The translations under genes were made by a program, and so were the position numbers. A stretch of 51,323 nt of DNA from a virus: the IMG/VR virus record IMGVR_UViG_3300010885_021982, positions 1-51,323 of that record; one strand, 5' to 3'. Below, in pieces: positions 5,471-39,046 of the stretch (positions within the stretch are counted from its first letter, which is position 1; each line of letters starts with the position of its first letter). The notes beneath the pieces were generated by a model. The model saw nothing but the letters and a program-made list of their open reading frames with translations, ran no database searches and was not told the origin of the DNA.

Positions 5471-5767
5471 ATGTCTGACTACAAACAATTTACTCTCGAA
5501 GAACGCATCGACCTCATGGGCGACCTCAAAGCTCAGATGGCTGACCTTGAGTCTAGGTACGAAGAGCTCAAAGCTCTTGTGATTGAGGATGCTGGCCTTG
5601 GCGCTCATGAAGGCTCTATGTTCCGTGCATCTATCACCTCTCAAAAACGTGAAACTTTAGACATGGTAGCTGTGCGCAATCACCTGTCTCCTCAGTTCAT
5701 TCGCGCTCACACTAAAGTCACTGAATCTATTACGACTCGTGTCACTGCACGCACAGGTAAAAAGTGA
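5471..5767 (+). CDS. conserved small phage protein (98 aa)
   Basis: Starts at ATG 5471 behind CTGGAGAACTGCA, the same leader as the gene at 4766. The N-terminal half is a charged helix (residues 8-40, likely coiled coil). The C-terminal half, with 'GSMFRASITSQKRETLDM' and 'HLSPQFIRAH', resembles a small family often seen in phage early regions beside recombination or modification genes, function not known to me. Its TGA overlaps the GTG of the next gene (GTGA at 5764-5767). It is the first gene of the hypermodification operon. Confidence 0.65.
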   Translation: MSDYKQFTLEERIDLMGDLKAQMADLESRYEELKALVIEDAGLGAHEGSMFRASITSQKRETLDMVAVRNHLSPQFIRAHTKVTESITTRVTARTGKK

Positions 5768-6282
5768 ACATCTTCTACCTTCATCACGCTGCCCCTCTTG
5801 CCGCTAGAATGCACTGCGATGTGCACGTCGTCAAGATGATTCTAGAAACTGCTCAAATGCTCTGCACTGTACACCATATACATGGTAACGGTGAGGCTGT
5901 GCCGTACAAACCTACGCATCAAAATCACCCGTCCACCCGCTGGGCTGCTGCCTCCAAAGTTCAGTATGACTGGTTGCAACAGCTTGGCGTGTTTCTTTGC
6001 AATGAATACGCCCTGCGCTACGGTCCTCGCCGTCATGCTTGTGAGGTTCACATCAAAGGCGTTCTCAGTGCTCCTCCACCTGCCCTGCTCGCTCAGCGTC
6101 AGTTTATATGGGCTGAGCCTCCGCAGGCTATGCCTGATGATTGCAAAGTTGAGGGTGATTCCATCACGGCTTACCGTAACTATTACCGTAAGTACAAGTC
6201 TAGTTTCGCCAAGTGGAAACTGGGTGCTGTGCCTGCGTTCATGACGATAGCCTACAACCCTCACGCTGAGCTAACATCATGA
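5764..6282 (+). CDS. conserved phage protein with CD-HVVKM motif, in hypermodification operon
   Basis: GTG start overlapping the previous stop. The product has an N-terminal 'MNIFYLHH', then CDVHVVKMILETAQML at residues 18-33. Further conserved-looking segments are YKPTHQNHPSTRWA and a C-terminal 'YRNYYRKYKSSFAKW'. I recognise this pattern (Cys-Asp-x-His-Val-Val-Lys-Met) as a widespread phage family of unproved function, sometimes annotated as a DNA glycosylase-like protein. The invariant Cys, His, Lys and Asp residues suggest an enzyme. Translational coupling on both sides places it with the thymidine-modification genes, but a DNA-repair role is equally possible. Confidence 0.6.
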   Translation: MNIFYLHHAAPLAARMHCDVHVVKMILETAQMLCTVHHIHGNGEAVPYKPTHQNHPSTRWAAASKVQYDWLQQLGVFLCNEYALRYGPRRHACEVHIKGVLSAPPPALLAQRQFIWAEPPQAMPDDCKVEGDSITAYRNYYRKYKSSFAKWKLGAVPAFMTIAYNPHAELTS

Positions 6283-7049
6283 GGCTTCGCCACGTCAGCT
6301 ACAAAGGCGTTCAGTTCTATGTACCAGAGGAAGAAACGACTGAGAACGTAAACGCAGCTGACGTGGGTATGCAGCACTGGTTCAACGACTCGTTAAAGTC
6401 CACCTTGACTTACGCTGAGCAGGTATGGTGGGTCAACCGTAGCGTAGAAGACAACCTGCTGCGCGTGTTGGAGGTTTTCTGCGGGTTCGGTATGAGCACA
6501 GCTAACATAGACTCCTACCGTATCCTTGAGCATGTAGCTTTTGATATCGATCCAGGATGCACCACTGCGTTCAAGTATTTACGCCCCGATGCTAAAGTGT
6601 TTGAGGGCGACTCGTATTACATGACTCCGCTGGTTATCGAGTTCCAGCAGTTTGATTACGTCCTGCTTGAGTACAATGCAATGACGACGTACAAGGCAAT
6701 GCGTGAGCCGCAAGAGAAAGCGATGATGGATGCGGTGTTCAAGTCCCGCGCTCGCTATGTTGTCTTTGTGGATAGCGCAAAAGTGAAAGAGCATCTGCAC
6801 TACCAGACGTACTCCAAGTTTTTCGGTAGGTCTATCAGCAACTCAGCCGAGTACTTGCGCGCAGTTGATCGTTACTTTCGCGCTACCTATGGCTATCACA
6901 TCAAATCATGCGCTCATGACGGTATCAACTACACGATGCTTCTGGAAGCTAGTACTGCTCCCGGTGATTCTTTCGATATCGTTGACACTCGTGAGATCGT
7001 TAACCTCAAATTTTTCAAAGACCTAGGATACATCGATGTTGAAGTATGA
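6279..7049 (+). CDS. Rossmann-fold, methyltransferase-like protein in hypermodification operon
   Basis: Predicted SAM-binding class I fold. A motif I-like loop after a beta strand is seen as 'VLEVFCGFGMST' at residues 63-74. An acidic second-strand end is 'VAFDIDPG' at 86-93, and 'AKVFEGDSYYM' resembles motif III. The usual N6-adenine or C5-cytosine catalytic motifs (DPPY, PC) are not visible; the corresponding strand reads 'DYVLLEYNAMT'. It could methylate a modified base side chain, a protein or a small molecule, or be a degenerate fold. ATG overlaps the previous TGA, and the next gene overlaps its 3' end. Confidence 0.55.
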   Translation: MRLRHVSYKGVQFYVPEEETTENVNAADVGMQHWFNDSLKSTLTYAEQVWWVNRSVEDNLLRVLEVFCGFGMSTANIDSYRILEHVAFDIDPGCTTAFKYLRPDAKVFEGDSYYMTPLVIEFQQFDYVLLEYNAMTTYKAMREPQEKAMMDAVFKSRARYVVFVDSAKVKEHLHYQTYSKFFGRSISNSAEYLRAVDRYFRATYGYHIKSCAHDGINYTMLLEASTAPGDSFDIVDTREIVNLKFFKDLGYIDVEV

Positions 7050-7827
7050 CCCTGACTTACCGTGGCAGCGATTTGCGCTAAAGACAATCATGACTGATGA
7101 TCTTGACCCCGTATACGTTGCCTTGTACCGCTCCAATATGCCTGAAGCTCAGCTCATGCGTTGGTGTGCTGCGTTTGTTACATACTACCATATGGGAACT
7201 GCTTGTGAGCTGTGTACGCTTGAGGGCAGCGACTTCTGGCATAAACTGTGGATGATCTATGATACGGCACCGCGAGCTTCTGAGCGTAGGCATTTCCGTG
7301 GTGAGGCTGGACGTAAGGCGATTCGTCGCTGGGCGGTTGAGTACAAGACTCCTGAGGCGTTCTTTGCCGCCTGTATGCAGCCTTCCTTTATGAAGCTGCT
7401 GAATAAAGGTATCCCTCAGATTGGTACATACTTTAGCTGGAAGTGCATGGACTTGCGTGAGGCGGTGTTCGGCTATCATGTTGACTGGACAAACGCTGAG
7501 CATCACTTGGTAACGCTACCTACGCAGGGTATGCAGGTTATCTTTCCAGAGCTGGCTGAACAAGCCAAACCCGACTACGCTGCTGCCCTACATCGCGTAG
7601 CCGACGAGATCAAATACCTGAATGCCCCACCTCGCGGAGTACGTAGCTGTGGAATAGCTGAGGCTGAAACCGTATGCTGTATGGCTAAGTCGTACTACAA
7701 GAACAAGAAGCCGATAGGTAAAGACATCATCGAGAAGCGTACTGACCTGCAAGGCTACGGCGACATCGCTGATCTTATCCTATCACATATGCCTGAAGAG
7801 CCTTTTGATGCGGAGATCGTATCATGA
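7036..7827 (+). CDS. putative amino acid:DNA transferase (AADT-like)
   Basis: Candidate for the step that joins an amino acid to pyrophosphorylated 5-hydroxymethyluracil in DNA. It shows the pattern I associate with the amino acid:DNA transferase family: 'DPVYVALYR' at residues 24-32, 'RWCAAFVTYYHMGTA' at 42-56 and 'ERRHFRGEAG' at 83-92, followed by a helical C-terminal half. In known thymidine-hypermodifying phages such an enzyme acts after a 5-hmdU DNA kinase, and both kinase-like genes lie just downstream. Starts at ATG 7036 inside the previous gene. The amino acid used cannot be read from sequence. Confidence 0.7.
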   Translation: MLKYDPDLPWQRFALKTIMTDDLDPVYVALYRSNMPEAQLMRWCAAFVTYYHMGTACELCTLEGSDFWHKLWMIYDTAPRASERRHFRGEAGRKAIRRWAVEYKTPEAFFAACMQPSFMKLLNKGIPQIGTYFSWKCMDLREAVFGYHVDWTNAEHHLVTLPTQGMQVIFPELAEQAKPDYAAALHRVADEIKYLNAPPRGVRSCGIAEAETVCCMAKSYYKNKKPIGKDIIEKRTDLQGYGDIADLILSHMPEEPFDAEIVS

Positions 7828-8177
7828 CAACAGCCTACGACAGGATTGATCGCTTTTTGCGGAAAAACCTCAGTGACGATAATTACTTGTCATATAAAGA
7901 CGAACTAGATGCGATATGCCAAGCAAAAATACAACGCACAGAGCAAGACTGGGATGCACTTGCTGAGAAGCAATTGGCATCAATTACACGCGACATGAAA
8001 GCAACCGCTGAAGATGCATTGGTTCGCGCCGCGCATAAGGTGATGGCAGAGTTGGAAAGCCAAGAACCTGTGCAGGTTTCGCCGCTTGAGTTTGTTGAGA
8101 TGGTTATGGAAAAAGAACATCTGATTGGTAAACCAATATTTTGGGCTGAGTGGCCTAGCAGGGAGAAGAACACATAA
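7824..8177 (+). CDS. small unknown protein in hypermodification operon (117 aa)
   Basis: ATG overlaps the TGA of the transferase gene, and its TAA overlaps the ATG of the first kinase, so it is coupled on both sides. The product is predicted all-helical and acidic, with a short C-terminal hydrophobic patch (LIGKPIFWAEWPSRE). No family recognised. Its conserved position could reflect an accessory role in base modification, which is inference. Confidence 0.6.
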   Translation: MTTAYDRIDRFLRKNLSDDNYLSYKDELDAICQAKIQRTEQDWDALAEKQLASITRDMKATAEDALVRAAHKVMAELESQEPVQVSPLEFVEMVMEKEHLIGKPIFWAEWPSREKNT

Positions 8178-8770
8178 TGCATCACATTATCAACATACGC
8201 GGCACTAATGGCTCCGGTAAGACTACGGCTGTACGTGCGATCATGAACCACTTGACATACTACAAAGATGCTGAAACATCCAATGGGGTCTTCCTGCACA
8301 TCTACCACAACCCGCTTGGCGAGTGCGTTGCTTTCGTCGGCAAGTACGAAGGTGCGGTCACTGGCGGTGTTGATCGTGTGCGTCATGTTCGTGACGTTGT
8401 ACCTGCCTGCGCTGAAATCATCCCTTACGGACACATCGTCATGGAAGGCTTGCTGATGTCTGGACTCCAGCAACTGACCAAAGACATCGCTGATGCGTGT
8501 GAAGGTTATGGGGTCTTGCACGCTCTCACCCTTGATACTCCCAGCAATCAATGTATCGCTCAGACGATGAACAGACGCGCTCTTGCAGGCAATGAGAAGC
8601 CTTTTGATCCAGCAAAATCGCTGCTTCCAAAATACCGCGCAGTTGAGCTAGCTCACTTGAAGTTGCAGTCATGGGGTATGGATTCTAGGTTGGTGTCGCA
8701 GCGTGACGCGGTGACGCTTGCATTAGGGTTTCTAGGGGTTGTCGTTAACCCTCAGAGCGTTATAATTTAA
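8177..8770 (+). CDS. P-loop kinase, 5-hmdU DNA kinase-like (copy 1)
   Basis: Predicted to phosphorylate 5-hydroxymethyl-deoxyuridine in DNA. The first strand and Walker A 'IINIRGTNGSGKTT' occupy residues 4-17; the 'RGTNGSGK' form is characteristic of 5-hmdU DNA kinases. A central strand 'GHIVMEGLLMSG' and a lid-like 'NRRALAGNEKPFD' with clustered basic residues follow. About 200 residues fits small P-loop nucleotide kinases. It is clearly paralogous to the next gene. Alternative: a deoxynucleoside monophosphate kinase. A promoter-like element for copy 2 lies in its last 30 bases. Confidence 0.75.
   Translation: MHHIINIRGTNGSGKTTAVRAIMNHLTYYKDAETSNGVFLHIYHNPLGECVAFVGKYEGAVTGGVDRVRHVRDVVPACAEIIPYGHIVMEGLLMSGLQQLTKDIADACEGYGVLHALTLDTPSNQCIAQTMNRRALAGNEKPFDPAKSLLPKYRAVELAHLKLQSWGMDSRLVSQRDAVTLALGFLGVVVNPQSVII
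8739..8766 (+). promoter_or_regulatory. candidate sigma70-type promoter before kinase copy 2
   Basis: TTGTCG (8739-8744) and TATAAT (8761-8766) are separated by 16 bases, the best -35/-10 pair in the window. It overlaps the end of kinase copy 1 and precedes the ATG at 8792. GCGTTATAAT is shared with 5404-5413. This could give a second transcription start for kinase 2, the HMUDK/aGPT-like gene and the synthase. Confidence 0.55.
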
Positions 8771-8791
8771 TCTTAAGTTAACGGAGCGAGT

Positions 8792-9358
8792 ATGTCAAAC
8801 GTGGTTATTTCTATACGAGGTTCTAACGGTGCGGGCAAGACGTGGGTAGCCCGTAAAGTGATGGATAGAGCTGAGGGTACGTTCAAGAAAAAGGTCAACG
8901 CCACCAATGGCGTCTTGGTCAACGTATACAAAGACTTTGTCATCCTGGGGTCTTATGACCGTGTATGTGGAGGGTGCGATACGGTCAAGACTCCTCAAAT
9001 GGTCTGGGATGCTGTAGTTGAATGCGCGCAGTTTTCAAACGTAATTTATGAAGGCGTAATTGTGGGCAACGTATATGAGCCTACGATCGTACTGCACCAA
9101 CGGCTTAAAGAGATAGACGCACGGCTTGTTCCTATCTGCCTCAGCACTCCCTTCGATCAGTGCGTCGCTAATGTGAACGCTCGCCGCGCGGTGGAGGGCA
9201 AGCCTCCTATCGAGAAAACTGATAACATCTTAACAAATGACAAGAAAAATATTTCATCAGCTCGGAAACTACACAACGCTGGCCTAGAACCTCACTGGGT
9301 AAGTGCTGAGGAAGCCGTTGAAGTTATCTGTAAAGAGCTGGGGCTTGACAATGTTTGA
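8792..9358 (+). CDS. P-loop kinase, 5-hmdU DNA kinase-like (copy 2)
   Basis: Second kinase-like protein with 'VVISIRGSNGAGKTW' at residues 4-18 and the same order of strands, 'SNVIYEGVIVGN' as Walker B region and a basic lid 'NARRAVEGKPPIEK'. Overall similarity to copy 1 is visible but low outside the motifs, so the duplication is old or the copies have different roles, for example first and second phosphate addition or different substrates. The last eight bases overlap the next gene. Start ATG 8792 follows AACGGAGCGAGT. Confidence 0.75.
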   Translation: MSNVVISIRGSNGAGKTWVARKVMDRAEGTFKKKVNATNGVLVNVYKDFVILGSYDRVCGGCDTVKTPQMVWDAVVECAQFSNVIYEGVIVGNVYEPTIVLHQRLKEIDARLVPICLSTPFDQCVANVNARRAVEGKPPIEKTDNILTNDKKNISSARKLHNAGLEPHWVSAEEAVEVICKELGLDNV

Positions 9359-10253
9359 CAATCTGGCTGGTTTACCTAACCCGCTCATGCTGACAAAACT
9401 CGCTTACTTTGTTGATGAGCGTGAGCATGTGAGGCGTGAACGTGACGCTGGGGCTCCTAGACCTTGGACTGAGGATATGATCTTAGACCGGTACCGGTTC
9501 TGCAACGTACGTCGCCGTGATGATCGTGTATCAGCTTGGATTATCAATCACATCATAGAGCCTTACAAAGACAACTCACACCTGTGGTTCATGCTTTGCT
9601 GCGCTCGTTGGATCAACTGGCCACCTACACTGCAAGGGTTGATGGATGAAGGGCTATGGCCGGTTGAGCACTTTGACGCTGAAGCCTTTGGCGACTATAT
9701 AGACCGCCGAGTTGAGTCCGGTGTGAAGAGCTGGACTGGGGCGTACTTGGTCACGGCTCGACAGCTTCCTGCCGGCATGGGTAAAGGTCGCTGGGTCTCC
9801 AAGTCTATGCTAGAGCCCCTCACTCAAAAGTACGTATGGTTTGAGGACTTCTTTCTTCAAAATGACATCACTGTTGAAAAGTCTATCGAGGCTTTCAAAG
9901 GCGCGTACGGCTTTGGCACTTTCATGACTGGTCAAGTCGTCGCCGATCTGACGTATAGCCCTGTGCTGTGTAACGCTCCTGATCTTTACAGCTACGCTCC
10001 AATCGGTCCTGGCTCGACTCGTGGACTCAACCGGCTATTTGGTAGAGGGCTAGACAAGCGCATAATCCAGGATCAGTTCAACGACGAGCTGCAATACATT
10101 GCTGAAAAGGTATCAGCTTACGTAGACCTAGGTGAGCCAAAGCTGACGCTGCACGACTGGCAGAACTGCATGTGTGAGTTTGACAAGTATATCCGCACTG
10201 AGAACGGCACAGGTCGTCCCCGCTCGACTTACAAACCAGAAACAGCTTTTTAA
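9351..10253 (+). CDS. helical HMUDK/aGPT-PPlase-like thymidine-hypermodification protein
   Basis: ATG 9351 is preferred over an upstream in-frame start at 9303 that would run deep into the kinase gene. Diagnostic segments are 'RDAGAPRPWTEDMIL' (31-45), 'RYRFCNVRRRDDRVSAWI' (47-64), a helix-hairpin-helix-like 'YGFGTFMTGQVVADL' (about 185-200) and 'GPGSTRGLNRLFGR' (about 218-231). This is the family described as alpha-glutamyl/putrescinyl thymine pyrophosphorylase-like or the helical domain of 5-hmdU DNA kinases; the two names overlap and I cannot choose between them. It is often encoded beside P-loop kinases, and two such genes lie directly upstream. Probably recognises or processes modified thymine in DNA. 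Confidence 0.75.
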   Translation: MFDNLAGLPNPLMLTKLAYFVDEREHVRRERDAGAPRPWTEDMILDRYRFCNVRRRDDRVSAWIINHIIEPYKDNSHLWFMLCCARWINWPPTLQGLMDEGLWPVEHFDAEAFGDYIDRRVESGVKSWTGAYLVTARQLPAGMGKGRWVSKSMLEPLTQKYVWFEDFFLQNDITVEKSIEAFKGAYGFGTFMTGQVVADLTYSPVLCNAPDLYSYAPIGPGSTRGLNRLFGRGLDKRIIQDQFNDELQYIAEKVSAYVDLGEPKLTLHDWQNCMCEFDKYIRTENGTGRPRSTYKPETAF

Positions 10254-10262
10254 GGAGCAATG

Positions 10263-11243
10263 ATGAGAGCTTTCAATGTTAAAAACGTCAACGAGGCTTT
10301 CTCGTTAGAAATCAATGCAATTCGCTTGGAGGGCGTAGAACGTAACTCGCGTAATGGCCCAGTCATAGAGTTCAGTGAGCCGGTTGCAACGACGTATCGA
10401 GACTCGATGCAGCGCGTATTGTTTGACAAGAAACGTATGTGTAATCCGTTCTTTCACAGTATGGAAGGGCTTTGGGTCATAGGCGGTTACCGCGATGTGG
10501 AGTTCCTTGATTACTTTAACGCACAGATGAAGCAGTACAGCGACGATGGCGATACGTTCTGGGGTGCGTACGGCTGGCGCCTTCGCGGTAACAAGGGTTT
10601 TGATCAGATCGAGAAAGCCATAGCGATCTTAAAGCGTAACCCTGAAGACCGTCGCGTGGTGACTACGATGTGGGACGCTGAGCTTGACCTAGGTCAAAGC
10701 AAAAAAGACCACCCCTGCAATACTCACATCTATTGGAAGGTTCGTGACGGAGCCCTGTATATGACGGTTTGCTGCCGGTCTAACGATCTGTTGTACGGCA
10801 AACTGGGTGCGAACGTGGTGCACTTCAGCATGCTCCAAGAGTACGTTGCTCACCGCGCGGGATACAAGGTTGGTCCGTACACGCAGATGTCTGACTCGCT
10901 TCACGTGTACGTTAATATCCCAGTCTGGGACAAGGTCAAGGATACCTCGTACGTACCCGAGGACTACTATTCTACCGACTACGCTGAGCTTATCGTGCAG
11001 CCCTATGGGATGTTCAAAGACTGTGAGACTTCTGACTGGGAAGCTGACTTGCTTGACTTCATGGTTGATCCTCAAACCGATCAGCTGTTCCGCACTCCCT
11101 ACTTCCAAGAGGTCGTTCAGCCGATCAGTTTGGTTTGGTGGGAGCATAAGAAAACTCGTCATGGGTTGCGCTACCTCGATAGTATTAAAGCTACTGACTG
11201 GCGTAAGGCGTGCGAGATTTGGCTCAAAGAAAAGGAGGCATAA
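10263..11243 (+). CDS. thymidylate-synthase-fold dUMP hydroxymethylase candidate
   Basis: Thymidylate synthase superfamily enzyme. Catalytic Cys152 is in 'HPCNTHIYW', phosphate-binding 'CRSNDLLYG' at 171-179, Asn184 in 'LGANVVHFSM', and His214/Tyr216 in 'SLHVYVN'. Retention of Asn (not Asp) at the base-reading position favours a uracil substrate; there is one extra residue before it compared with E. coli ThyA. Beside 5-hmdU kinase-like genes it most likely makes 5-hydroxymethyl-dUMP; ordinary dTMP synthesis is the alternative. ATG 10263 is preferred to 10260 because AAGGAG at 10252-10257 is then five bases away. Confidence 0.8.
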   Translation: MRAFNVKNVNEAFSLEINAIRLEGVERNSRNGPVIEFSEPVATTYRDSMQRVLFDKKRMCNPFFHSMEGLWVIGGYRDVEFLDYFNAQMKQYSDDGDTFWGAYGWRLRGNKGFDQIEKAIAILKRNPEDRRVVTTMWDAELDLGQSKKDHPCNTHIYWKVRDGALYMTVCCRSNDLLYGKLGANVVHFSMLQEYVAHRAGYKVGPYTQMSDSLHVYVNIPVWDKVKDTSYVPEDYYSTDYAELIVQPYGMFKDCETSDWEADLLDFMVDPQTDQLFRTPYFQEVVQPISLVWWEHKKTRHGLRYLDSIKATDWRKACEIWLKEKEA

Positions 11244-16685: not shown

Positions 16686-17118
16686 CGCGAAAGCTAGAGA
16701 ACAATCTGACTTTCAGCGTGAGCTTTACAAGAGAAACTTTCTAGACGATGACCACTGGGTCAATCTAGCTCGTGAAGCCGGTATCAACTTACCAATGTAC
16801 TATGTTCGCCCATCTGACGCGGCTGTTAAGAGTTTGCTTCGTCGGCTGCGGGTGAGCTGGGATGTGTATTTAGAAGCGTTTGGCTGGGAAACTGCTGCTG
16901 ATTTTGAGCGGTACAACCCCACCTACAGCATGCGTCCTCTGGCTGGCCTGATCTTAGAACTCTGGGATGAGCAGCAGCGTATGGTTGATGGCTGTAAAGA
17001 TGCAGCAGCTTTTCGCGAGATCCGCGTTGGTGATGCCCAAGCTCGTGAGATGAAGTACCCACGAGGCACTGCAAAAGTTCGCCGTGCTCCACTGAAAGGT
17101 AAAAATGTTAGCGCATGA
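16657..17118 (+). CDS. unknown protein (153 aa)
   Basis: ATG 16657 preferred over an upstream TTG at 16642. The product has 'LLRRLRVSWDVYLEAFGWETAADFE', suggesting a helical, possibly helix-turn-helix region, and a basic C-terminus (KVRRAPLKGKNVSA) that may bind nucleic acid. No family recognised. It overlaps the resolvase gene by 29 bases and the next gene by 14. Confidence 0.6.
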   Translation: MTKPFSPESSAKAREQSDFQRELYKRNFLDDDHWVNLAREAGINLPMYYVRPSDAAVKSLLRRLRVSWDVYLEAFGWETAADFERYNPTYSMRPLAGLILELWDEQQRMVDGCKDAAAFREIRVGDAQAREMKYPRGTAKVRRAPLKGKNVSA

Positions 17119-17614
17119 AGTGATCAAAACTGTACGGGCAGGCAACTCAGTTACCCGCTGGCATACCCGTAGAATGAATAAATATGAGACCGTAGGCGAG
17201 CACACTGCAAACGTCTTAGCGATCGTGTTTGCGCTTTGCGGCGATGAGAACCCGTCGCCTGAGCTGATTTCAGCTACGTTGTTACACGACACCGCTGAGC
17301 AGTGGACGGGTGATGTTCCTGCGACTGCAAAGTGGGAAATGCCGATCCTCAAAGAGAATTTAGACGCTCTTGAGGAAAAGATGATGGCGCAAAACTGGCT
17401 CAAGTCTCCAAAACTTACAGTCGGTGAAGCGTTGACTCTGAAGTGGGCTGATATGCTTGATCTTTGCTACACTTGTTTGGGTGAGCTAGATATGGGTAAT
17501 AGAACCATCTCAGACGTCTTTGAGCGTGGTGTTGAGTACCTGCGTGGGCTAACCCCACACCCCGTAGGTTTGAAGTTGCTAGAGGATCTTGTAAAGGAGC
17601 GTAGACATGCATGA
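17105..17614 (+). CDS. HD-domain 5'-deoxynucleotidase (YfbR-like)
   Basis: HD-superfamily phosphohydrolase. Metal-binding positions are H33 in 'VGEHTANV', H61-D62 in 'LLHDTAEQWTGDVPATAKW' (starting 59) and a later Asp in 'KWADMLDL'. The 'H..E..TGD.P...K' pattern is that of YfbR-type dNMP 5'-nucleotidases. In a phage that probably replaces thymidine it could remove dTMP or another unwanted nucleotide; that link is inference. ATG overlaps the previous gene and its 3' end overlaps the next ATG. Confidence 0.75.
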   Translation: MLAHEVIKTVRAGNSVTRWHTRRMNKYETVGEHTANVLAIVFALCGDENPSPELISATLLHDTAEQWTGDVPATAKWEMPILKENLDALEEKMMAQNWLKSPKLTVGEALTLKWADMLDLCYTCLGELDMGNRTISDVFERGVEYLRGLTPHPVGLKLLEDLVKERRHA

Positions 17615-17912
17615 TTTTGAAAAACGATTTAATGGCGTCAAGGCTGGTGATCTAAAACCCTCGTCAGCTAATTCTCGTCAAGTAGCTGGGACTCATTACA
17701 AGTCTGGCATCCAACACTGGGACTTTGTTGTAGCAAATGACCTTGATTATTTTCAGGGTCAAATCACAAAATACGTGGTTCGTTGGAAACACAAGAACGG
17801 TCTTGACGATTTGCTCAAGGCTCAGCATTTTCTAGAAAAGTACATTGAGGTTGCTCGGCGGGAACCTCAAGACGGCTCAACTCCCACGTCAGCCTACGTT
17901 GGTCAGGAGTAA
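17607..17912 (+). CDS. DUF3310-family phage protein (101 aa)
   Basis: Contains the family pattern 'GTHYKSGIQHWDFVVANDLD' followed by 'YFQGQITKYVVRWKHKNGLD' and 'DLLKAQHFLEKYI'. This domain is widespread in phage early regions and is linked with nucleotide metabolism, though the activity is not established. Starts at ATG 17607 inside the HD gene's end. Confidence 0.8.
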   Translation: MHDFEKRFNGVKAGDLKPSSANSRQVAGTHYKSGIQHWDFVVANDLDYFQGQITKYVVRWKHKNGLDDLLKAQHFLEKYIEVARREPQDGSTPTSAYVGQE

Positions 17913-21685: not shown

Positions 21686-22749
21686 GGTCCTTCTGGGACA
21701 ATTTCAGGGGCAGGAGGCTCATCAATATTTGCATCAGGATTGACCGTTGTTGATCCTCCTCCATCACCCCCATTGACCGTATCAAGAGGAGGTCCATTGC
21801 TCCCATCCTCAGATGGGTTAGTACCTGGAGGGGCTTGCGTATTACCAGGAACAACAGGAACAGCAGGAGTTGACGGGAAAGTTTGTTTATACCAATCGGT
21901 CAACCCTTTGATTGCGCTTGTGCCGTTAGACCCAGATGCAAACAGCGTAGCCATGGCAGCCATTTGAGCCAACGGTGAGGCTGAATAAGCTCCAGGCATC
22001 GGTCCATTGTATGTTTGCGATGTCGATGTAGGTACAGTTTGACCACGAAGTAGTTGAGCTGCGTTTGTTGCTTGTTTCAGGGGTGCATCAATTTTCGCTT
22101 GTTGCAGTGCTTGCTGCTGAGCTCCAGTGTTCATCATTGCAGTTGCGCCGGTGAGCCCTAGATTTTGCTCTTGAGCTGCGATATCAGCTTGTGTCTTTGA
22201 CGCATTGTTCTGAAGTTGCAAGTTTTGCAGATCAGCGTTAACCGCATTGTTGTAGCCTGTGTTCAAAGCTCCGTACTGCTGCCCTGTCAAGTTGGACTGC
22301 ATATCAGCCATAGTTTGGCCTGTAGCATTGGCAAACCTCTGTGAGCCGCTGCCTCCAGTGCCCGCAAACGCAGCCTTCAATCCGGGCATTACATTGCGTT
22401 GTATGTTTTGCTGCTGTAGCCTACCCATCTCATCCACCACGTTATGGGTGTATGGGTTCATCAAGGCTTGGATATTTTCAGGAGTTAAACCTCCCGCCGC
22501 TGTAGATGCAGTATTTCCAGCTGCTGTTAGTCCTGGTTGATACGCTGTAGCCGCTCCAGGAACAGCTGCTTGTCCTTGCTTTTGTAAATCGGTAAAACCC
22601 GCAACAAGTTTTGTAGGGTCTGCCGTTAAAGCAGTTTGACCAGCTTTTGCCAGATCATTCAAATAGCCCGTGTACGCTGCTGGGGCAGTGGTCGTCTGAG
22701 TTGTCGTCGTGTTTACATTTGGTAACGGATCACCTTGGGTTAAAGACAT
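21682..22749 (-). CDS. internal virion protein candidate, Gln/Ala/Thr-rich (355 aa)
   Basis: The N-terminus is threonine-rich (NVNTTTTQTTTAPAAYTGYL), the middle is Ala/Gln/Asn-rich and predicted helical (residues 90-230), and the C-terminus is a Pro/Gly/Asp-rich tail. Such composition is common for phage internal or ejection proteins. Start and stop overlap both neighbours by one to four bases. No domain recognised. Confidence 0.6.
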   Translation of the reverse strand: MSLTQGDPLPNVNTTTTQTTTAPAAYTGYLNDLAKAGQTALTADPTKLVAGFTDLQKQGQAAVPGAATAYQPGLTAAGNTASTAAGGLTPENIQALMNPYTHNVVDEMGRLQQQNIQRNVMPGLKAAFAGTGGSGSQRFANATGQTMADMQSNLTGQQYGALNTGYNNAVNADLQNLQLQNNASKTQADIAAQEQNLGLTGATAMMNTGAQQQALQQAKIDAPLKQATNAAQLLRGQTVPTSTSQTYNGPMPGAYSASPLAQMAAMATLFASGSNGTSAIKGLTDWYKQTFPSTPAVPVVPGNTQAPPGTNPSEDGSNGPPLDTVNGGDGGGSTTVNPDANIDEPPAPEIVPEGP

Positions 22750-25700
22750 TACTTAACTCCTTTGAGATAAGCCAGAGGTGATTTAGCCTTCGGCGGTATA
22801 CGGTTAATTGGCGCAGAGCGTTTTTGCTTTCTTATTGATTCTCTCATAGCATCTAACTTTCTTGCACCTTCTGTGTTTGACCCATCACCCAACGCTGCAA
22901 CTACATCAGCGTCAAATACGTATTCTCCATCAGCTAGACGAGCGTCAATCAAATCGTCTTGGCCTCCACCGGCTCCTTGCACGTAGTGCGATCCTTTGTA
23001 AGGAACGCCTCCCGCCGCCATAAGTGGTGACGCCATGGCTAGACCGCCACCTCGCAGGTGCGCAACTTGCGGGGTAGACGAGCCGTAGAACGGTGAACTG
23101 TCAAAAGAAAGAGGACTCTTTTCAACCCCGTAATTATAATATCCAGAAGTGTTTTGCGTTTGAGGCATAGTAGTCGTGTCTGTTTGGGGCTGTTGCTGCT
23201 GAAACACAGGGTTTATCTGCTGCAAAGGGGTTTGCTGACTGATGTCTATCGCTTGAGGGGTATACGTACCTTTAAAAGAGTAATCGGCATTAGGGTTGTA
23301 TGTTGAGGTTAGTAGGCCAGGAGTGAGAAGAGCCGATTTCCAAGTAGGTACAGCCTCCGTCCCGTCAGGGTTTGTTGCAGACGCGTTCGCCGGTTTTGGA
23401 GCAATATCGCTGCCTCTTGGTAAATTTGAGTCAGTTGCTGGTTTTTTGGGAGTGCCGACGGCTACTATGTTTCCTGGAGTTTGGGTTTCTACTTCAAGTG
23501 GGTCTAATTTGTAGTTTGAGTCATCTACACCTACTAGACTTGGATCTGTTAAATCTTCAGGAGTTACCGCATCTTTGCCGCTCAAGTCTACAGTCAATCC
23601 GTCTGTGCTTTCTCCAGCACCGACCTCGCCTGAAGTTAATCCTTGCCCGCCGCCCATATCCTCTAGGTTTGACGTTGTAGGCAGTTTTAAACCCTGACCG
23701 TCTGTAGAGCCTGAGGTTGGATTATAGAGGCTGTAGTCTGGTGTCCAATTAGGATCTACAAGATCGCTTACACCTGTGAACGCCGTTCCGGTTAATCCTG
23801 TACCGGTCTCAGGGTCTATTCCTATTTTAGTAGGGTCTTCGGGGTTGAGTGAGTAGTCAGGTTTAAAATCAGGAACAACTGGGTAGGTGAACGGCTCTTC
23901 ATCTACAATAGGCTCATTCACCCCGTCTTCGTTGACTGTTGTCGGGGTAGGTGATGTTAGATCTATCTCAGCATATTTACCGCTCATGTAGTCGTTGTAA
24001 ACAGCTTGAGAATCGATATTGTTGAGAATGTTATTTTTAGCAACTTCTAAAGCTGCTTTTTCTTCTGGAGTGTCTGCAGTTATTCCGTACTGTTCTTCAA
24101 AGTTAGCAGCTTTCAGCTCTAACTCAGCTCCTTTATCCGCAACCGTAGGCGCATCATTTACAAGGTCTGCGCTTGTATCACCGAGTTGTCGAGCCATTGA
24201 CACGTTTTTACTGACCGTAAGCGCATCATTGTAATTTAGCTCTCCAGACAGCACGCGATCACTGATCGCTTTTGCGTCAGCATCACTCAACCCATACATG
24301 TCTTTTGCCTGTTTAGCAAGCTCAGCTGCCGTTTCTGGCAAGGCTTTTATGGTGTTAAAGTCCTGATAGTTCTTTAACCCAGTGGCGATATCATAAGCCC
24401 ATTGTTTAGCCGCTGCGTCATCTTTTAGTCCGTTATCTTTAGCGTACTTTAAAGCGGAGTCATAGGCTGTTTTTGCTGTCGGGTCTTTTTGGATAGTTTC
24501 GTCGGCGTGAGCGGCTTCAGCCTTCCTAAACGCATCATAAGCCTCAGCTGAGTTGTATTCTCCGCTGTCGATCTTTGCCACGATATCTTTAATGGCTGCG
24601 CTGTCTTTCATGCCGATCATGTCAGCTTGATCTTGAATCCAAAGTTGCGAATCTCTAGCTTCTTGGTCTCTAATATACTGACTAGACACTTCAGCAGCAG
24701 GGGTTCCGTCTTTTGCGTCTGCTTTTGCAAACTCCATACCTAAGCTGTTTGCGCTCTCAGCTGCTTTTATAAGACCGCTCGCATCGTACTGGTAGTCTTT
24801 GTTTTTTGACCACGAAGATATATCTTGGTCTAAGATACTATTTTTGATTTCTCTTTGTGCTTCATACGACAGCCCTTTTTGAGCTGCTTGATCTGCTGCG
24901 CTTTGAGCGTTAAATGCTCTCATAGCGTAAGCGTCTATGGATACCCCATCTCCTTTGCCCTCAGCCTTCATCACTTGCGCTTGAGCAGCTGCCTTTAAAT
25001 CTTCGTCTGATATGTCGCCGGCATACGTCTTTTTGAAGTCTTGATAGATGTCACCTACTTTATCTTGATCAGATTTTGTAGCGGCAGTTTGAACTGCAGA
25101 TGTAGCGTCTTGAAGTGTAGCTTTGGGGTCATTTATATACGCATCCCTCTCAGCTTGAAGGTCTACGTTGCTCAGCTGATCAACCTTCATCGCCGCAACT
25201 TGCTGGTCAAAAGCGGCTGCTTTGTTAGTTTTTAACGCATCAGCTGCTGCTTTAGCAGTCTCTTTTGCTATGTCTTTAACTTGAGGGCTGGTTAAAATTT
25301 GAACAGACGTAGTTTTTGCGGCATTTGTCGCCATCGCCTGCACTTGCTCAGTCGTTTTGCCCTGAGCAACTCCAGTGAGTGTAGCGTTCACCACACCAGT
25401 AACTATTTTATCAACTGCAGCTGCACTTGCCGAGCTTTGAACCAAAGCCGTAAGAGTTGGGCTGGCCTGCACGATATTGCCAACTATATTTGCTCCTTGA
25501 ATCAAACCTCCAATTGCTGCAGCTTTAACATCTTGACCAGCGATGCTAGCAGAGATAGAGGCTATGATAGGAGCTTTGATAACGCTGGGTAATGCTGCAA
25601 AAGTAGAGTTTGAGTTTAAAACTCCTGGTACAGACGCAGCTAGACCCATCTTTAAAGCATCATTAACGCTCGTACCCGTCAAAGCAGCTGTAGCGACTGA

Positions 25701-26264
25701 TCCAGCCATATTACCTACAACTGTCGAAATCACAGTATTCATGCCCGTGCTTGCAAGTGCACCAGTCACGTAATTTGCAGTGGATCCGCCTACAACCGGA
25801 ACAAGAGCTGCGGTGAGACCTTTCTTTACGTCTCCGCCGTTTAAAGCTGTGTTTACTACCGTGTTTCCAACGATTGCGGCTGTAGTACCAGACAACCCAA
25901 TGCTTTCCCCGATAAGAGACCCAAGCCCAGGAGCGTACACAGCTAGGGCAATTGCGGCCAGAGCTTTGGGGTCTGTAGCAATTGCTTCTGCTGTTTTTTC
26001 AATAGGTTGTAAAATCTTCGCATCTAGATCAGCAAGAGCATCTTCTGTTTTGTTTTTAACATCTGTGTACGTATTTTTAACGTCTTTGTATGTATCGTCT
26101 ACCTTATTTTTAACGTCTTTGTATGTATCGTCTACCTTATTTTTAACGTCTTTATACGAATCTTCTACGCTGTTTTTCGCTCCTGTCCATGCGTCTTCTA
26201 CGCTGTTTTTAGCGTCTTTTTGCGTATTTTCTACCTTGTTTTTAGCTTTTGTCCATGCTCCCAT
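22749..26264 (-). CDS. large internal virion protein with N-terminal 11-residue repeats (1171 aa)
   Basis: Residues 1-70 consist of charged 11-mers such as VDDTYKDVKNK, two of them exact, a hendecad pattern typical of LEA-like amphipathic helices. Residues about 95-260 are Ala/Gly/Val-rich and hydrophobic, resembling membrane-active ejection proteins. The middle is helical with many Lys/Asp/Ala, followed by a Pro/Thr/Asp-rich linker (about 800-1060). Near the C-terminus 'SHYVQGAGGGQDDLIDARL' followed by 'ADGEYVFDADVVAALG' is a motif I have seen in phage virion proteins. Probably ejected into the periplasm with DNA. A tape-measure role is the alternative but no other long-tail gene is present. 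Confidence 0.65.
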   Translation of the reverse strand: MGAWTKAKNKVENTQKDAKNSVEDAWTGAKNSVEDSYKDVKNKVDDTYKDVKNKVDDTYKDVKNTYTDVKNKTEDALADLDAKILQPIEKTAEAIATDPKALAAIALAVYAPGLGSLIGESIGLSGTTAAIVGNTVVNTALNGGDVKKGLTAALVPVVGGSTANYVTGALASTGMNTVISTVVGNMAGSVATAALTGTSVNDALKMGLAASVPGVLNSNSTFAALPSVIKAPIIASISASIAGQDVKAAAIGGLIQGANIVGNIVQASPTLTALVQSSASAAAVDKIVTGVVNATLTGVAQGKTTEQVQAMATNAAKTTSVQILTSPQVKDIAKETAKAAADALKTNKAAAFDQQVAAMKVDQLSNVDLQAERDAYINDPKATLQDATSAVQTAATKSDQDKVGDIYQDFKKTYAGDISDEDLKAAAQAQVMKAEGKGDGVSIDAYAMRAFNAQSAADQAAQKGLSYEAQREIKNSILDQDISSWSKNKDYQYDASGLIKAAESANSLGMEFAKADAKDGTPAAEVSSQYIRDQEARDSQLWIQDQADMIGMKDSAAIKDIVAKIDSGEYNSAEAYDAFRKAEAAHADETIQKDPTAKTAYDSALKYAKDNGLKDDAAAKQWAYDIATGLKNYQDFNTIKALPETAAELAKQAKDMYGLSDADAKAISDRVLSGELNYNDALTVSKNVSMARQLGDTSADLVNDAPTVADKGAELELKAANFEEQYGITADTPEEKAALEVAKNNILNNIDSQAVYNDYMSGKYAEIDLTSPTPTTVNEDGVNEPIVDEEPFTYPVVPDFKPDYSLNPEDPTKIGIDPETGTGLTGTAFTGVSDLVDPNWTPDYSLYNPTSGSTDGQGLKLPTTSNLEDMGGGQGLTSGEVGAGESTDGLTVDLSGKDAVTPEDLTDPSLVGVDDSNYKLDPLEVETQTPGNIVAVGTPKKPATDSNLPRGSDIAPKPANASATNPDGTEAVPTWKSALLTPGLLTSTYNPNADYSFKGTYTPQAIDISQQTPLQQINPVFQQQQPQTDTTTMPQTQNTSGYYNYGVEKSPLSFDSSPFYGSSTPQVAHLRGGGLAMASPLMAAGGVPYKGSHYVQGAGGGQDDLIDARLADGEYVFDADVVAALGDGSNTEGARKLDAMRESIRKQKRSAPINRIPPKAKSPLAYLKGVK
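26074..26139 (-). repeat. two exact 33-bp tandem repeats
   Basis: Identical 33-base units at 26074-26106 and 26107-26139 encode the exact VDDTYKDVKNK repeats of the 1171-residue virion protein. Degenerate copies continue on both sides (about 26040-26230). The identity at DNA level indicates recent expansion. Confidence 0.85.
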
Positions 26265-34121: not shown

Positions 34122-36632
34122 TTACCTCGCGAGTGAAAAATTGACAGGAGCGTATGCCCAAGCGATATAGCAGTAATTGTTTCCGGCTGCATTTAAAGCT
34201 GTGGATCTTAATTTAAAACCATTGGACAGGATGTCTATAGATATAGTTAAAAAGCCGCCGCTCGACGTCGTTAAGTCAAGAGCTTGAGTTACAGGGTTTT
34301 GGTTAGCGACTGATGCAAGATTAACAGTGTTGTACGTGTTAGTCACACCGGTCAAATTTACTATATCAAAAGCATACCAATCTTCCGAATTTGTTATATT
34401 TTTTATCCAAACAAGTACGGGTGCAAAACCTAAATTTACAAAATACCCATCGGTTTGCCCGTTACCTACGTACGCCGCGACGTGTAGTACGCCGCGTTCT
34501 TTGTTAAAGATATAGTACTGGTATTTTGAGCCATTTTCGTTGACATAGGTGTTTGTGAGTAAATTAAAGCCTCCCGAATACAACCACATATCATTTTGAA
34601 ATTGAGGGGTTACGGAGCTGTTAAGATATAGCTGATAATAACTGGGCAAGGCATTGCACCAAATTACCCAAGGAGCTGCGCTTACATTGAGCTTTTTTAT
34701 CATCACAAAATCTATATCTTGTCCTGGCTCGTCTACCAATGTCAAACCCGTACCGTTGCCTGTGTATACACCGGTAACGATCCCCATATTATAAGAGTAA
34801 AAACCATAGATGGGAGAAGCTGAAAAAGTTCCGTAGTTGGTTGTAGACACTGTAGTATATCTAAACGTATAGTTATAGTAACCGACAGTGTTTTGGTTAT
34901 TTAAAATGTTTGTAGAAGATAACCCTATGACTCCTGAAGTAGAAGATACAGATATTTTAGGACCATCTCCTGTTGTGTACGTATTATTAGCCCCCAGTAT
35001 CATGTAACCATTTAAAGCACTATTGTACGTAAATGCGCCTCCGTTGGTGTCTGCATATACGTTCGAGCTCAAAGTTTTAACAGCCGTTGTTGTGTACGAT
35101 ATATTAACATACACCTGAGCGTTGTAAGGTCCAACGCTTTGTGCGGCTCCAGTGCCCGTGTATCTAGAAATATAAAATGCGTTTCTAGGGTCTGTTACTA
35201 CTGCTTGGGGTATAGTTGCTGTATTAATGCCTACTGCGTAATTTCCATAGTACTCAATTCCTACGTAGGGGTAAGAAAAACCTTGTTGCCCAAAATTTAC
35301 GTAACCAGAGCCCATAGGGGCTACACTGTTTCCTCTTATAAAAGGAATAAATACCTGCTTACGCGAGTACATGTTGTAACTGAGCGCCCAACTGTTGTTG
35401 CCAGTTGGTGATCCATTTGACCAAACTCCGTTCCTTGATACCCAAATATTACCGTGATCAATATTAATCATTATTCCAAAGATGTCTGTAGTTACGCATC
35501 CTGTAAAAAGTTGAGTTGCTGTGGATCCATCCCAAGAAGAGCATATGGTCCCAGCAGAGTTAAAACGTATCCCATAAACCTGCCTGAGGCTAGCAGCCAA
35601 AGGATCTTGACTATACTGATCAAAGTCGTCAGTGACATATCCACAAAACCAATCAGCCTGATTGCTCTTTTGAAACTCAAAATAGTAAGAATATGGTGCG
35701 GCAGCTACTGCAGCATTTAAGGTGAGGGTTCCTGGTTTAGAGTTTGTGGCAGTTGCAGTTGTAGTTGTGTACTGCAAATTCCCAGAAGATGGTAATGTTG
35801 CGGGAGAGCCAGCAGTGATTTGAAGAGGGTTTAAGGTGCAATAGTTAGAAGAAGTTATTGATATTGCAGGGTTGTACGGGACGTCATACAAACAACTATA
35901 AGTCAGTTTGTCTGATGACGTTGTAGACACATTTATCCCCCAGTTATTTCCTCTACCGCTAGTGTCATAGCCGAGTGTTGTTGCATTTGTTACGTCTCCA
36001 AAATCTAAATAAAACCCATTTGTCCCATAGCTAGACAACCCCGCAGCACTAAGCTGCATAGGTTGTGGAGCTACGTCTATAGAGTTTGTAGAGTATGATT
36101 TTTCAAAATACGCAGGAGGCACTGCTGCTCCATCTATAAATGAAACAGAGGTCATAACCCCGTCAAAAAAACTTGATGGACTACTCGCCGCTATTTGATG
36201 TCTAGCTGCGGTATTAAATATAGTGTTTGTTTGAGTTGCTACGTAATTAAGCGCTGTTGCGGGAGTATACGAATTGAGAAACCAGTTTGTTCCTGCTATC
36301 CCAAAAGTTATGTGATACCATGCTGATGGGTCTCTATATTTTGTAGTTGTAGTGTATATAGTCACCCCGCCGTACACTATGACTAGTTGATCTGCTGCGT
36401 TAAAACCGACGTAGTTGGAGGTATTAACAGAAAAAATAACCTGTGTAGACCCCATGGATCCTCGTTTGATCCAACAAGAAAAAGTCCAATAGTTAAGATC
36501 TCCAGCAGAAGCAAAAATTTTAGTGCAGAAGTTTGGAGCTATAGATCTAAACCGAACGCTACGAGTTGGGTAAATGGGGTTGTACACCACATTTTGAGTT
36601 TTAGAGATGAATTGATTTGGAGCTGCAAACAT
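34122..36632 (-). CDS. LamG/SPRY-like tail fibre A (836 aa)
   Basis: Receptor-binding fibre candidate. A LamG/concanavalin-like domain spans about residues 25-180 ('YWTFSCWIKRGSMGSTQVIF', 'FFDGVMTSVSFIDGAA'), then 'YLDFGD...DTSGRGNNWGIN', then a SPRY-like region ('YYFEFQKSNQADWFCGYVTD'). The C-terminal 300 residues are rich in Tyr/Asn/Thr. Clearly paralogous over its length to the next upstream gene. Six bases separate the two. Confidence 0.75.
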   Translation of the reverse strand: MFAAPNQFISKTQNVVYNPIYPTRSVRFRSIAPNFCTKIFASAGDLNYWTFSCWIKRGSMGSTQVIFSVNTSNYVGFNAADQLVIVYGGVTIYTTTTKYRDPSAWYHITFGIAGTNWFLNSYTPATALNYVATQTNTIFNTAARHQIAASSPSSFFDGVMTSVSFIDGAAVPPAYFEKSYSTNSIDVAPQPMQLSAAGLSSYGTNGFYLDFGDVTNATTLGYDTSGRGNNWGINVSTTSSDKLTYSCLYDVPYNPAISITSSNYCTLNPLQITAGSPATLPSSGNLQYTTTTATATNSKPGTLTLNAAVAAAPYSYYFEFQKSNQADWFCGYVTDDFDQYSQDPLAASLRQVYGIRFNSAGTICSSWDGSTATQLFTGCVTTDIFGIMINIDHGNIWVSRNGVWSNGSPTGNNSWALSYNMYSRKQVFIPFIRGNSVAPMGSGYVNFGQQGFSYPYVGIEYYGNYAVGINTATIPQAVVTDPRNAFYISRYTGTGAAQSVGPYNAQVYVNISYTTTAVKTLSSNVYADTNGGAFTYNSALNGYMILGANNTYTTGDGPKISVSSTSGVIGLSSTNILNNQNTVGYYNYTFRYTTVSTTNYGTFSASPIYGFYSYNMGIVTGVYTGNGTGLTLVDEPGQDIDFVMIKKLNVSAAPWVIWCNALPSYYQLYLNSSVTPQFQNDMWLYSGGFNLLTNTYVNENGSKYQYYIFNKERGVLHVAAYVGNGQTDGYFVNLGFAPVLVWIKNITNSEDWYAFDIVNLTGVTNTYNTVNLASVANQNPVTQALDLTTSSGGFLTISIDILSNGFKLRSTALNAAGNNYCYIAWAYAPVNFSLAR

Positions 36633-36637
36633 CTAGA

Positions 36638-39046
36638 TTACCTCGCCAGAGCAGAAATAAAGTTCATGGAAGCCCAAGCACAGTATATATATGTAACTCC
36701 GGACACGTTTATGTTTGCTCCTGTAGTTGATCTTGTCTTAAAGCCGTTAGATAAAAAATCTATTGGAGAAGCGGAGCTAGAAGCTGCAGTTGTTTCTATG
36801 TTTAAGGCACTGCTAATCACGTTTTGAGCTGGGGTTGGTCTAGAGCTAGGATATGTTGTGTTGGACATAATAACATACCAACTACCCGTAGTGGAGCTGG
36901 CTTTTATCATCACAAGCTCGGGGGCAAAACCTGTATCTACAAATACTCCACTTGTTTGCCCTGTACCTACAAAACTTCTAAATTGAGAATATCCGGGAAC
37001 TTCTGCAAACGCATAAGCAAAAAACGAACCCCCATTGGAATTACTAGAAATGCTGGTACCTACAGTTATGTTTGTACCCGCAGGAGCAGTGCTATTCCAA
37101 AGTGTTATATCTCCCGCTGATGCAGCATTTGTATTGAAATTTATATAGTTTGTTGCTCCTAACGAGACGTGGTAAATAACTAGGGGTGGGACTGTGGATA
37201 GGTAATCTTTAACAATGACAAACTTAGCGAGAAGCCCTACTGCTACGGTTCTATTCGCGCCGGTACCTGTGTACAAAGTGATAGACTGAGCTGAGGAGTT
37301 ATTCCTAAAAGCCCAGTACTTGTACGTAGCGGCACTTGTGTTGATGTTAGCCAAAGTACCGACTGTAAAACTAGCGTTCACTCCAAGACCTGTAACACCT
37401 TGTGTTTGCGTTGTTTGCGCGGGACCGGCTACGTCGGTGATAAGTTGTTTATTATCTCCTCTACTTGAATCATACAAAACCCCATCGCCCGTAGTGCTGC
37501 TTGCATGCAACCAAGCGATACCCACAGTTGTCAGTTGTGTTGTGTTGCTAAGTGAAGCTCCTGTTCCGGTGTATTGTCCGCTGTACACATAGTTGTAGGG
37601 CAACGCGAGGCTAGATGCGGAAATTGTGGTGTTTAGGTTTCTAGAGTTTAGAGCTTTGAATAAGGTGACATTGGCAGTGTAGGTAAAACCCTGCTGCCCA
37701 AAATTGGCGTAAAACGCACCAACGGTTCCACCTCCAGGACCCCGAACAAAGGGGTACCACTGTCTACCGCTAGTAGACGGAGCTGTAAATGTTAACTGGG
37801 GAGTTGTGCCTGAGTCTGGGTTTCCAGCAGGGAATGTGCCATTCTTTGAAATCCACATAGACCCTGTTCCAAAGTCTACGGCGATTCCGTATATATCTCC
37901 AACAGCTCCACCTGTAAATAAAGAAGTTGCAGTGCCGGTTGTTCCACTAAAAGAACTTACGGTGACTGGAGAAGCTGTATTTAGCTTTGCGCAATAAACT
38001 TGCGAAGCTGTGTTTCCATCAGGGTTTCCACTATACAAATCAAAGGTATCATTGATCCACCCGCAAAACCAATCACCCGCTGTTGCCACTTGCCATTCAA
38101 AATACCATTTACCTGTGCTTACCGCATAAGTCCCTACTCTAGTTGTCACCCCTGCCGCTGCTGCGGTAGTTACGTATCTCTGTCCTCCCCAAGTTGGGAG
38201 ATCAGTAGGGTTTCCGCTGGAGTAAGACAAAGAGGTTAGACCGCAGTAGTTAGACGAAATATCTGGGACTAAGGCTGTATTTGTATACTGAGAAGGGACA
38301 TCATAAAGCACATCAAAGCTGACTTTATCTGAAATAGTATTGCTGATATTGGCAGACAAAGTCCAATCGTGGCTCAATCCACTTGTATCTAATCCAATAT
38401 TTGCAAAACTTGATCTATCTCCAAAATCAAGATAAAAACCATTATTTCCATATACTCCATTCCAAGTCACTGAAGTCGGTGATCTTGGTATCGTCAGCAG
38501 GTTGTTTGTCGTGTCTTGCGCAGATAGCTCGCTTACCGATAAAGCTGCCCCGTCTATAAAAGATACACACGTGATAATGCCATCAAAATAGTTTGAGGCA
38601 TTAGCATAGCCTATGGTGTGGCTTATCGCGGTGTTAAATATGGACGGGGAGCCTGAAGGGGTAAATGTGTAAATGCCGTTAACGACAAGGCTCATAGTTC
38701 CAGCGTTAGACGTAAACATAATCCAGTACCAACTTCCAGGATCTCTAAACACCATTGTTGACGTATACGCGTTTGTGCCGTTCATGGTCAGCACAAGCTG
38801 GTCGCTGGTGTTAAACCCTAAAAAAGTCGTAGTGCTAGCTCCCCATATGTTTTGCGTTGTACTTAGCGTTCCTCGTTTAAGCCAACAGGAAAATGTAAAT
38901 GTGTTGGCTGAAGTTGGCGTTACAAAAGTTCTACTCAAGCCGCCAGACACTGAAGCTCTAAATCTTAAACTCTTGGACGGATACGTAGCCGGACCCGGAG
39001 CAGCAGCATGAGCTTTAGTCAAAAACTGATTTTTTGAAACCAGCAT
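36638..39046 (-). CDS. LamG/SPRY-like tail fibre B (802 aa)
   Basis: Same architecture as fibre A: 'TFTFSCWLKRGTLSTTQNIW', 'NYFDGIITCVSFIDGAALS', 'FYLDFGDRSSFANIGLDTSG' and 'WYFEWQVATAGDWFCGWIND'. Both end in '...YCAWASMNFISALAR' versus 'YCYIAWAYAPVNFSLAR', an alike C-terminal tip that may dock or trimerise. The tandem pair has diverged most in the distal half, as expected for adhesins. Start overlaps the end of the large repeat fibre by one base. Confidence 0.75.
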   Translation of the reverse strand: MLVSKNQFLTKAHAAAPGPATYPSKSLRFRASVSGGLSRTFVTPTSANTFTFSCWLKRGTLSTTQNIWGASTTTFLGFNTSDQLVLTMNGTNAYTSTMVFRDPGSWYWIMFTSNAGTMSLVVNGIYTFTPSGSPSIFNTAISHTIGYANASNYFDGIITCVSFIDGAALSVSELSAQDTTNNLLTIPRSPTSVTWNGVYGNNGFYLDFGDRSSFANIGLDTSGLSHDWTLSANISNTISDKVSFDVLYDVPSQYTNTALVPDISSNYCGLTSLSYSSGNPTDLPTWGGQRYVTTAAAAGVTTRVGTYAVSTGKWYFEWQVATAGDWFCGWINDTFDLYSGNPDGNTASQVYCAKLNTASPVTVSSFSGTTGTATSLFTGGAVGDIYGIAVDFGTGSMWISKNGTFPAGNPDSGTTPQLTFTAPSTSGRQWYPFVRGPGGGTVGAFYANFGQQGFTYTANVTLFKALNSRNLNTTISASSLALPYNYVYSGQYTGTGASLSNTTQLTTVGIAWLHASSTTGDGVLYDSSRGDNKQLITDVAGPAQTTQTQGVTGLGVNASFTVGTLANINTSAATYKYWAFRNNSSAQSITLYTGTGANRTVAVGLLAKFVIVKDYLSTVPPLVIYHVSLGATNYINFNTNAASAGDITLWNSTAPAGTNITVGTSISSNSNGGSFFAYAFAEVPGYSQFRSFVGTGQTSGVFVDTGFAPELVMIKASSTTGSWYVIMSNTTYPSSRPTPAQNVISSALNIETTAASSSASPIDFLSNGFKTRSTTGANINVSGVTYIYCAWASMNFISALAR

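Follow-up and report, generated by a model that had tools for sequence, protein, structure and literature searches.

Thymidine hypermodification in phages follows a published scheme that leads from 5-hydroxymethyldeoxyuridine (5-hmdU) through a DNA kinase to a transferase (PMC6449724). The gene sets combine a core with tailoring: the core makes an aminoacyl-thymidine, and which base finally results is determined by add-on enzymes. Among the add-ons encoded in GenBank cassettes are pyridoxal phosphate (PLP) and radical S-adenosylmethionine (SAM) enzymes in Pseudomonas phage M6, a Yuavirus with the 5-(2-aminoethyl)-dU pathway (gp51 to gp59), and flavin adenine dinucleotide (FAD) and GNAT enzymes in Pseudomonas phage PaMx11. 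The latter, an Abidjanvirus, has the order amino acid:DNA transferase (AADT), FAD enzyme, GNAT, kinase, helical protein (HEL), thymidylate-synthase-fold (TS) enzyme and HD nucleotidase. Rhodoferax phage P26218 has a minimal AADT-kinase-TS-HD set, in which the core is accompanied neither by the helical protein nor by an adjacent tailoring gene. We describe here a cassette of this kind at positions 5764-11243 of the IMG/VR record IMGVR_UViG_3300010885_021982, a linear record of 51,323 bases from an uncultured phage, probably a fragment, which as a whole is called the window below. Judged from sequence and predicted structure, the cassette itself is of a known kind, and what appears to be new is a putative SAM-type tailoring enzyme encoded at 6279-7049.

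Gene content of the cassette

Eight open reading frames (ORFs), all on the + strand, fill the interval and are joined by short overlaps (4, 14, 4, 1 and 8 bp) or by gaps of 21 bp, between the two kinase genes K1 and K2, and 6 bp, between HEL and TS. An initial annotation, made from the letters alone, had named five of these genes, had described most of the joints as overlapping, and had predicted that the phage hypermodifies thymidine. The joints are as it described. The five genes are open + strand frames inside the interval, and Pfam, PHROG, Protein Data Bank (PDB) and M6 queries place them in the predicted families: ADDT, HMUDK kinases, HMUDK_hel and TS. In particular, profile searches put the kinases and the transferase in these families and not in unrelated ones. 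Gene order also matches that of thymidine-hypermodifying phages, so that the predicted function is supported. The core had thus been correctly recognized, but the gene set was incomplete: three further ORFs lie in the interval (5764-6282, 6279-7049 and 7824-8177), and two genes that are part of the story, 6279-7049 and an HD phosphatase gene at 17105-17614, had been missed.

M6 carries homologous AADT, kinase, HMUDK_hel, TS and HD genes in nearly the same order. It differs from the window in having a single kinase and an HD gene beside TS, whereas the window has two kinases, the added SAM-methyltransferase-like gene and an HD gene 6 kb away. PaMx11 shares the same core, and the core enzymes of P26218 are also as in the window, its kinase being one of a small number of K1 relatives that have a name. 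When the tailoring enzymes of these phages were sought in the six frames of the window, no homologue of the M6 PLP enzyme gp52, radical-SAM enzyme gp53 or gp56, no Radical_SAM domain, and no homologue of the PaMx11 FAD oxidoreductase or GNAT was found; as the record is a fragment, these absences hold for its 51 kb. Megablast with 5-17 kb of the window gave no match among GenBank phages.

The cassette is conserved in about ten related contigs. All cassette genes that could be compared are under purifying selection (dN/dS 0.04 to 0.12 where dS was computable, a range to be read with several dS values being above 2, near saturation). A degraded operon is ruled out, because every core frame is open and under constraint.

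The SAM-methyltransferase-like gene and its co-occurrence with transferase cassettes

The gene at 6279-7049 (+ strand) overlaps the AADT gene by 14 bp. Profile searches of Pfam, NCBIfam, PHROGs and PDB sequences with its product found nothing significant, and tblastn at E 1 found nothing among GenBank phages (50,697 records). A search of 84,980 bacterial and archaeal genomes returned 63 pattern matches, none of which was a relative. An AlphaFold2 model built with six homologues (pLDDT 70, pTM 0.75) matched 672 PDB chains at E <0.001, and among the 50 matches listed nearly all were SAM-dependent methyltransferases. In a library of viral protein models, two phage AdoMet_MTases proteins stood far above all others (E 8e-15 and 1e-13, TM 0.67 to 0.78). 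Residues E65, G69, G71, D89 and D111, corresponding to motif I and to acidic residues for SAM, are invariant across six close homologues. The motif-IV region is unusual: it reads LEYNAMT in the window, and DPTAMT or DPTAGT in distant homologues. We could rule out a DNA cytosine-C5 methyltransferase, since the PCQ-type catalytic Cys is absent, EYNAM or EFNSM standing at the corresponding place. The gene is strongly constrained (dN/dS 0.04). Taken together, the model and the conserved residues suggest a class I SAM-methyltransferase fold belonging to a previously unnamed family.

As loci retrieved by means of the transferase cannot reveal an association with it, 2.9 million viral contigs were scanned with the 6279-7049 family itself. 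This yielded 13 loci with a relative. All 11 loci with enough flanking sequence contained an AADT cassette; in the other two (L111 and L113) the contig ends within or just past the gene, and the upstream genes match the helicase and primase of the window. Two arrangements were encountered: either the cassette lies directly behind the methyltransferase-like gene, as in the window, or it lies upstream of it, past TS and HD (L114, L115 and L116). Identity to the window protein is 60% for the homologue in L014 (L019), and members down to 22-25% identity were found only with AADT cassettes in the contigs that could be checked. A profile of the family also picked up remote homologues in L069, L087 and, with a weak match, L058, all of them other AADT loci; those of L069 and L087 share the signature DSAxxKxxLH with the window protein. 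Conversely, minimal cassettes (AADT, one kinase, TS and HD) are common among the contigs. The association is therefore one-way, the gene occurring only with the cassette and the cassette sometimes without the gene, which is the pattern expected of an optional tailoring enzyme, the PLP and radical-SAM genes of M6 and the FAD and GNAT genes of PaMx11 being comparable cases. Since the gene is found only with such gene sets, its product probably adds a further chemical step to the hypermodification.

Other ORFs recur in these cassettes. A helicase-like ORF of 441-470 aa is repeatedly found between AADT and kinase in distant cassettes (L058, L069, L085-L087 and L115); its L058 version, the sole member scanned, matches Pfam SNF2-rel_dom (E 8e-19). 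ORFs of 214-336 aa that have no identification occupy the tailoring slot of other AADT cassettes (L077-L079, L073, L082 and L095), and may be further tailoring enzymes.

Core enzymes

The product of 7036-7827 (+ strand) is, by its sequence, an amino acid:DNA transferase. It matches Pfam PF18724 ADDT at E 9.4e-10 over profile positions 23-226 of 232 (39 bits, the cut-off being 26.2), and phrog_6364 at E 2.5e-58. Among solved proteins it matches 25qc (E 1.6e-22) and, at E 8.4e-22, the glycinyltransferase 8z2m, the sequence of which resembles the PaMx11 AADT. Alignment with 12 relatives, including those of M6, PaMx11, FP1, PhiW-14 and P26218, left 24 invariant columns, among them R80, E83-R85, R88, K136, D139, E209, E211 and K218. 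The amino acid transferred is probably glycine.

The two P-loop kinases reported in the initial annotation both belong to the 5-hmdU kinase superfamily: the GxNGxGKT Walker A motif is intact in each (GTNGSGKT in K1), and M6 gp54 as query recovers both (K1, E 1.8e-7; K2, E 5.1e-7). K2 (8792-9358, + strand) matches Pfam HMUDK_HMUD1 at E 1.3e-6 (28.5 bits, the cut-off being 27) and, on this sequence evidence, is a 5-hmdU DNA kinase. For K1 (8177-8770, + strand) the match to Pfam HMUD2 is marginal and below cut-off (E 0.26). In the tree, the two form separate old clades, each of them present in relatives in which the region is intact, so that a recent duplication is ruled out. K1 clusters with the one kinase that P26218-type cassettes possess, with moderate support (90/89) and on long branches, hence unsurely. 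Both kinases match PHROG 800, labelled 'terminase small subunit'. Because M6 gp54, which bears the same name in GenBank, finds both of them, this label looks wrong and is apparently a propagated misannotation of 5-hmdU kinases. It is widespread on such kinases in GenBank phage records.

HEL (9351-10253, + strand) matches Pfam PF18723 HMUDK_hel (E 3.5e-42, 145 bits against 25) over positions 4-275 of 281, as well as M6 gp55 (E 7.7e-48), and has invariant columns in common with the M6, PaMx11, FP1 and Rhizobium homologues. Its AlphaFold2 model was poor (pLDDT 56), and a fold search with that model gave no match. A GPGxxRGLNR stretch in HEL is reminiscent of a helix-hairpin-helix motif.

The TS-fold protein (10260-11243, + strand) matches Pfam PF00303 Thymidylat_synt (E 1.5e-20), phrog_5131 (E 1.1e-100) and M6 gp58 (E 5.7e-76), and TS-like proteins of hypermodifying phages are among its relatives. 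The residues first reported as C152 and Asn184 are Cys153 and Asn185 of the 327-aa ORF, the earlier numbering fitting a start at the second ATG. The catalytic Cys153 is kept. Asn185 aligns with the Asn of Escherichia coli ThyA, at a position that is Asp in the T4 dCMP hydroxymethylase (gp42), and the enzyme should therefore use a uracil nucleotide. The best PDB sequence match is a CMP 5-hydroxymethylase; together with the closest relatives, this favours a hydroxymethyl product and makes a dUMP 5-hydroxymethylase the probable identity. The matches to PHROGs 6364 and 5131, and a further one to PHROG 2396 (E 2.5e-53), agree with the Pfam placements of the cassette genes.

The gene at 17105-17614 (+ strand), 6 kb from the cassette, encodes a YfbR-like HD 5'-deoxynucleotidase (Pfam YfbR-like, E 2.2e-14), the counterpart of M6 gp59 (E 3.3e-14), which probably lowers the dTMP pool. 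It is adjoined by a DUF3310 protein at 17607-17912; a similar-looking protein has the same place, between HD and the methyltransferase-like gene, in the distant AADT cassettes L069 and L087.

Other genes of the window

The first ORF of the interval (5764-6282, + strand) encodes a PHROG 624 protein (phrog_624, E 9.6e-50), annotated as a DNA-binding protein, to which no role in the pathway is assigned; a homologue lies upstream of the transferase in the relatives that have this stretch. The ORF at 7824-8177 (+ strand) encodes a 117-aa protein of unassigned role with no convincing family match, a weak one to MCM_N (E 7e-4) being below cut-off. It is missing from all relatives checked, where AADT and K1 directly abut, and is probably an insertion. 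The helicase gene is truncated by the left end of the window, a longer version being present in a relative. Elsewhere, two neighbouring long minus-strand ORFs with similar N-termini (34122-36632 and 36638-39046) are likely to be duplicated tail or receptor-binding proteins, and a 1171-aa minus-strand ORF (22749-26264) begins with short repeats (DTYKDVKNKVD) and has almost no family match.

Proposed pathway and alternative explanations

We consider it likely that the locus is a thymidine-hypermodification operon equipped with a dedicated SAM-dependent tailoring enzyme. The TS-fold enzyme would convert dUMP into 5-hydroxymethyl-dUMP, and 5-hmdU would be incorporated during phage DNA replication while the HD nucleotidase limits dTMP. 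One or both P-loop kinases, aided by HEL, would phosphorylate selected 5-hmdU residues in the DNA, after which AADT would swap the phosphate for an amino acid. With glycine, the most likely one, this would yield N-alpha-glycyl-thymidine. Chemically, glycyl-thymidine is 5-carboxymethylaminomethyl-dU and corresponds in DNA to the cmnm5U of tRNA. Finally, the 6279-7049 product would alter the side chain, methylation of the amine or of the carboxylate being the simplest possibility. Some thymines of the phage DNA would thus be replaced by an amino-acid-bearing version, the presumed benefit being escape from restriction. Chances seem to us evenly divided on the more precise proposal that the 6279-7049 protein is the first member of a new family of SAM-dependent enzymes that tailor aminoacyl-thymidine in phage DNA, with an undescribed N-methyl, methyl-ester or other SAM-derived glycyl-thymidine as product, a DNA counterpart of the methylation of tRNA wobble uridines by MnmC and CmoM.

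Several observations weigh against this scheme. Methyltransferase Pfam profiles on the 6279-7049 protein are all below cut-off (best E 0.13-0.2, and 0.08 for a distant homologue), and its model is of moderate confidence, with TM of 0.4-0.55 to solved structures. SAM-fold proteins may also transfer groups other than methyl, as phage CmoX, which uses carboxy-SAM (PMC12783734). The gene is dispensable, as contigs L015-L017, L036 and L037 seem to have the cassette and to lack the gene. AADT, for its part, is only about 30% identical to the M6- and PaMx11-type enzymes, and the nearest named transferase by score comes from a putrescinylthymine phage, Delftia phage PhiW-14. One may ask whether the phage makes a plain aminoacyl-thymidine only and 6279-7049 encodes a passenger, be it a separate methyltransferase for DNA or RNA or a SAM-fold protein that is inactive or has a regulatory role. 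The minimal cassettes of P26218 and of many contigs, the close relatives L015-L017 and the unusual motif-IV region would fit such a view, but the family is seen only with AADT cassettes, in two arrangements and down to its most divergent members, and both its low dN/dS and its overlap with the AADT gene speak for a role in the pathway; we regard the plain product as unlikely.

The end product would also differ if AADT transferred another amino acid or an amine, such as ornithine or putrescine. PhiW-14 gp109 (32.8% identity, E 8e-36) is the best-scoring named match, and PhiW-14 DNA carries alpha-putrescinylthymidine (PMC6449724); unlike the window, PhiW-14 has a 157-kb genome in which gp109 lies outside any compact cassette. 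The solved glycinyltransferase is, however, a good match too (E 8e-22), and since the M6 and PaMx11 enzymes have the same invariant columns as that of PhiW-14, the sequence does not decide the substrate. A substrate other than glycine appears rather doubtful to us. As to the kinases, K1 might act on free 5-hmdUMP, leaving the DNA step to K2 alone, or both might act in series through a pyrophosphoryl intermediate. The age of the two lineages, both kept in relatives, and the single cassette kinase of M6, PaMx11 and FP1 point this way, whereas the grouping of K1 with the P26218-type kinase, which must perform the DNA step if the pathway is the same, points the other way. Such a division of labour is a tentative possibility, to which we give somewhat less than an even chance.

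Relation to known modification enzymes

If the scheme holds, a family of SAM-methyltransferase fold that is restricted to these cassettes would add a new reaction to thymidine hypermodification and a predictable new DNA base, which may differ in restriction resistance. Enzymes of SAM type that elaborate position 5 of a pyrimidine, or the side chain attached there, are known in MnmC and CmoX (PMC9626948, PMC12783734). MnmC acts on the wobble uridine of tRNA, and CmoX, the enzyme of phage carboxymethylcytosine, on cytosine C5 with a catalytic Cys, where the 6279-7049 protein, judged by eye from motif order, has A134 (S in relatives). In tRNA, cmnm5U is made with glycine and is then processed by the bifunctional MnmC, which combines a flavin step with SAM methylation (PMC9626948). 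By analogy, the phage pathways may parallel the two activities of MnmC, cassettes of PaMx11 type having an FAD enzyme beside AADT, and the window a SAM-type enzyme.

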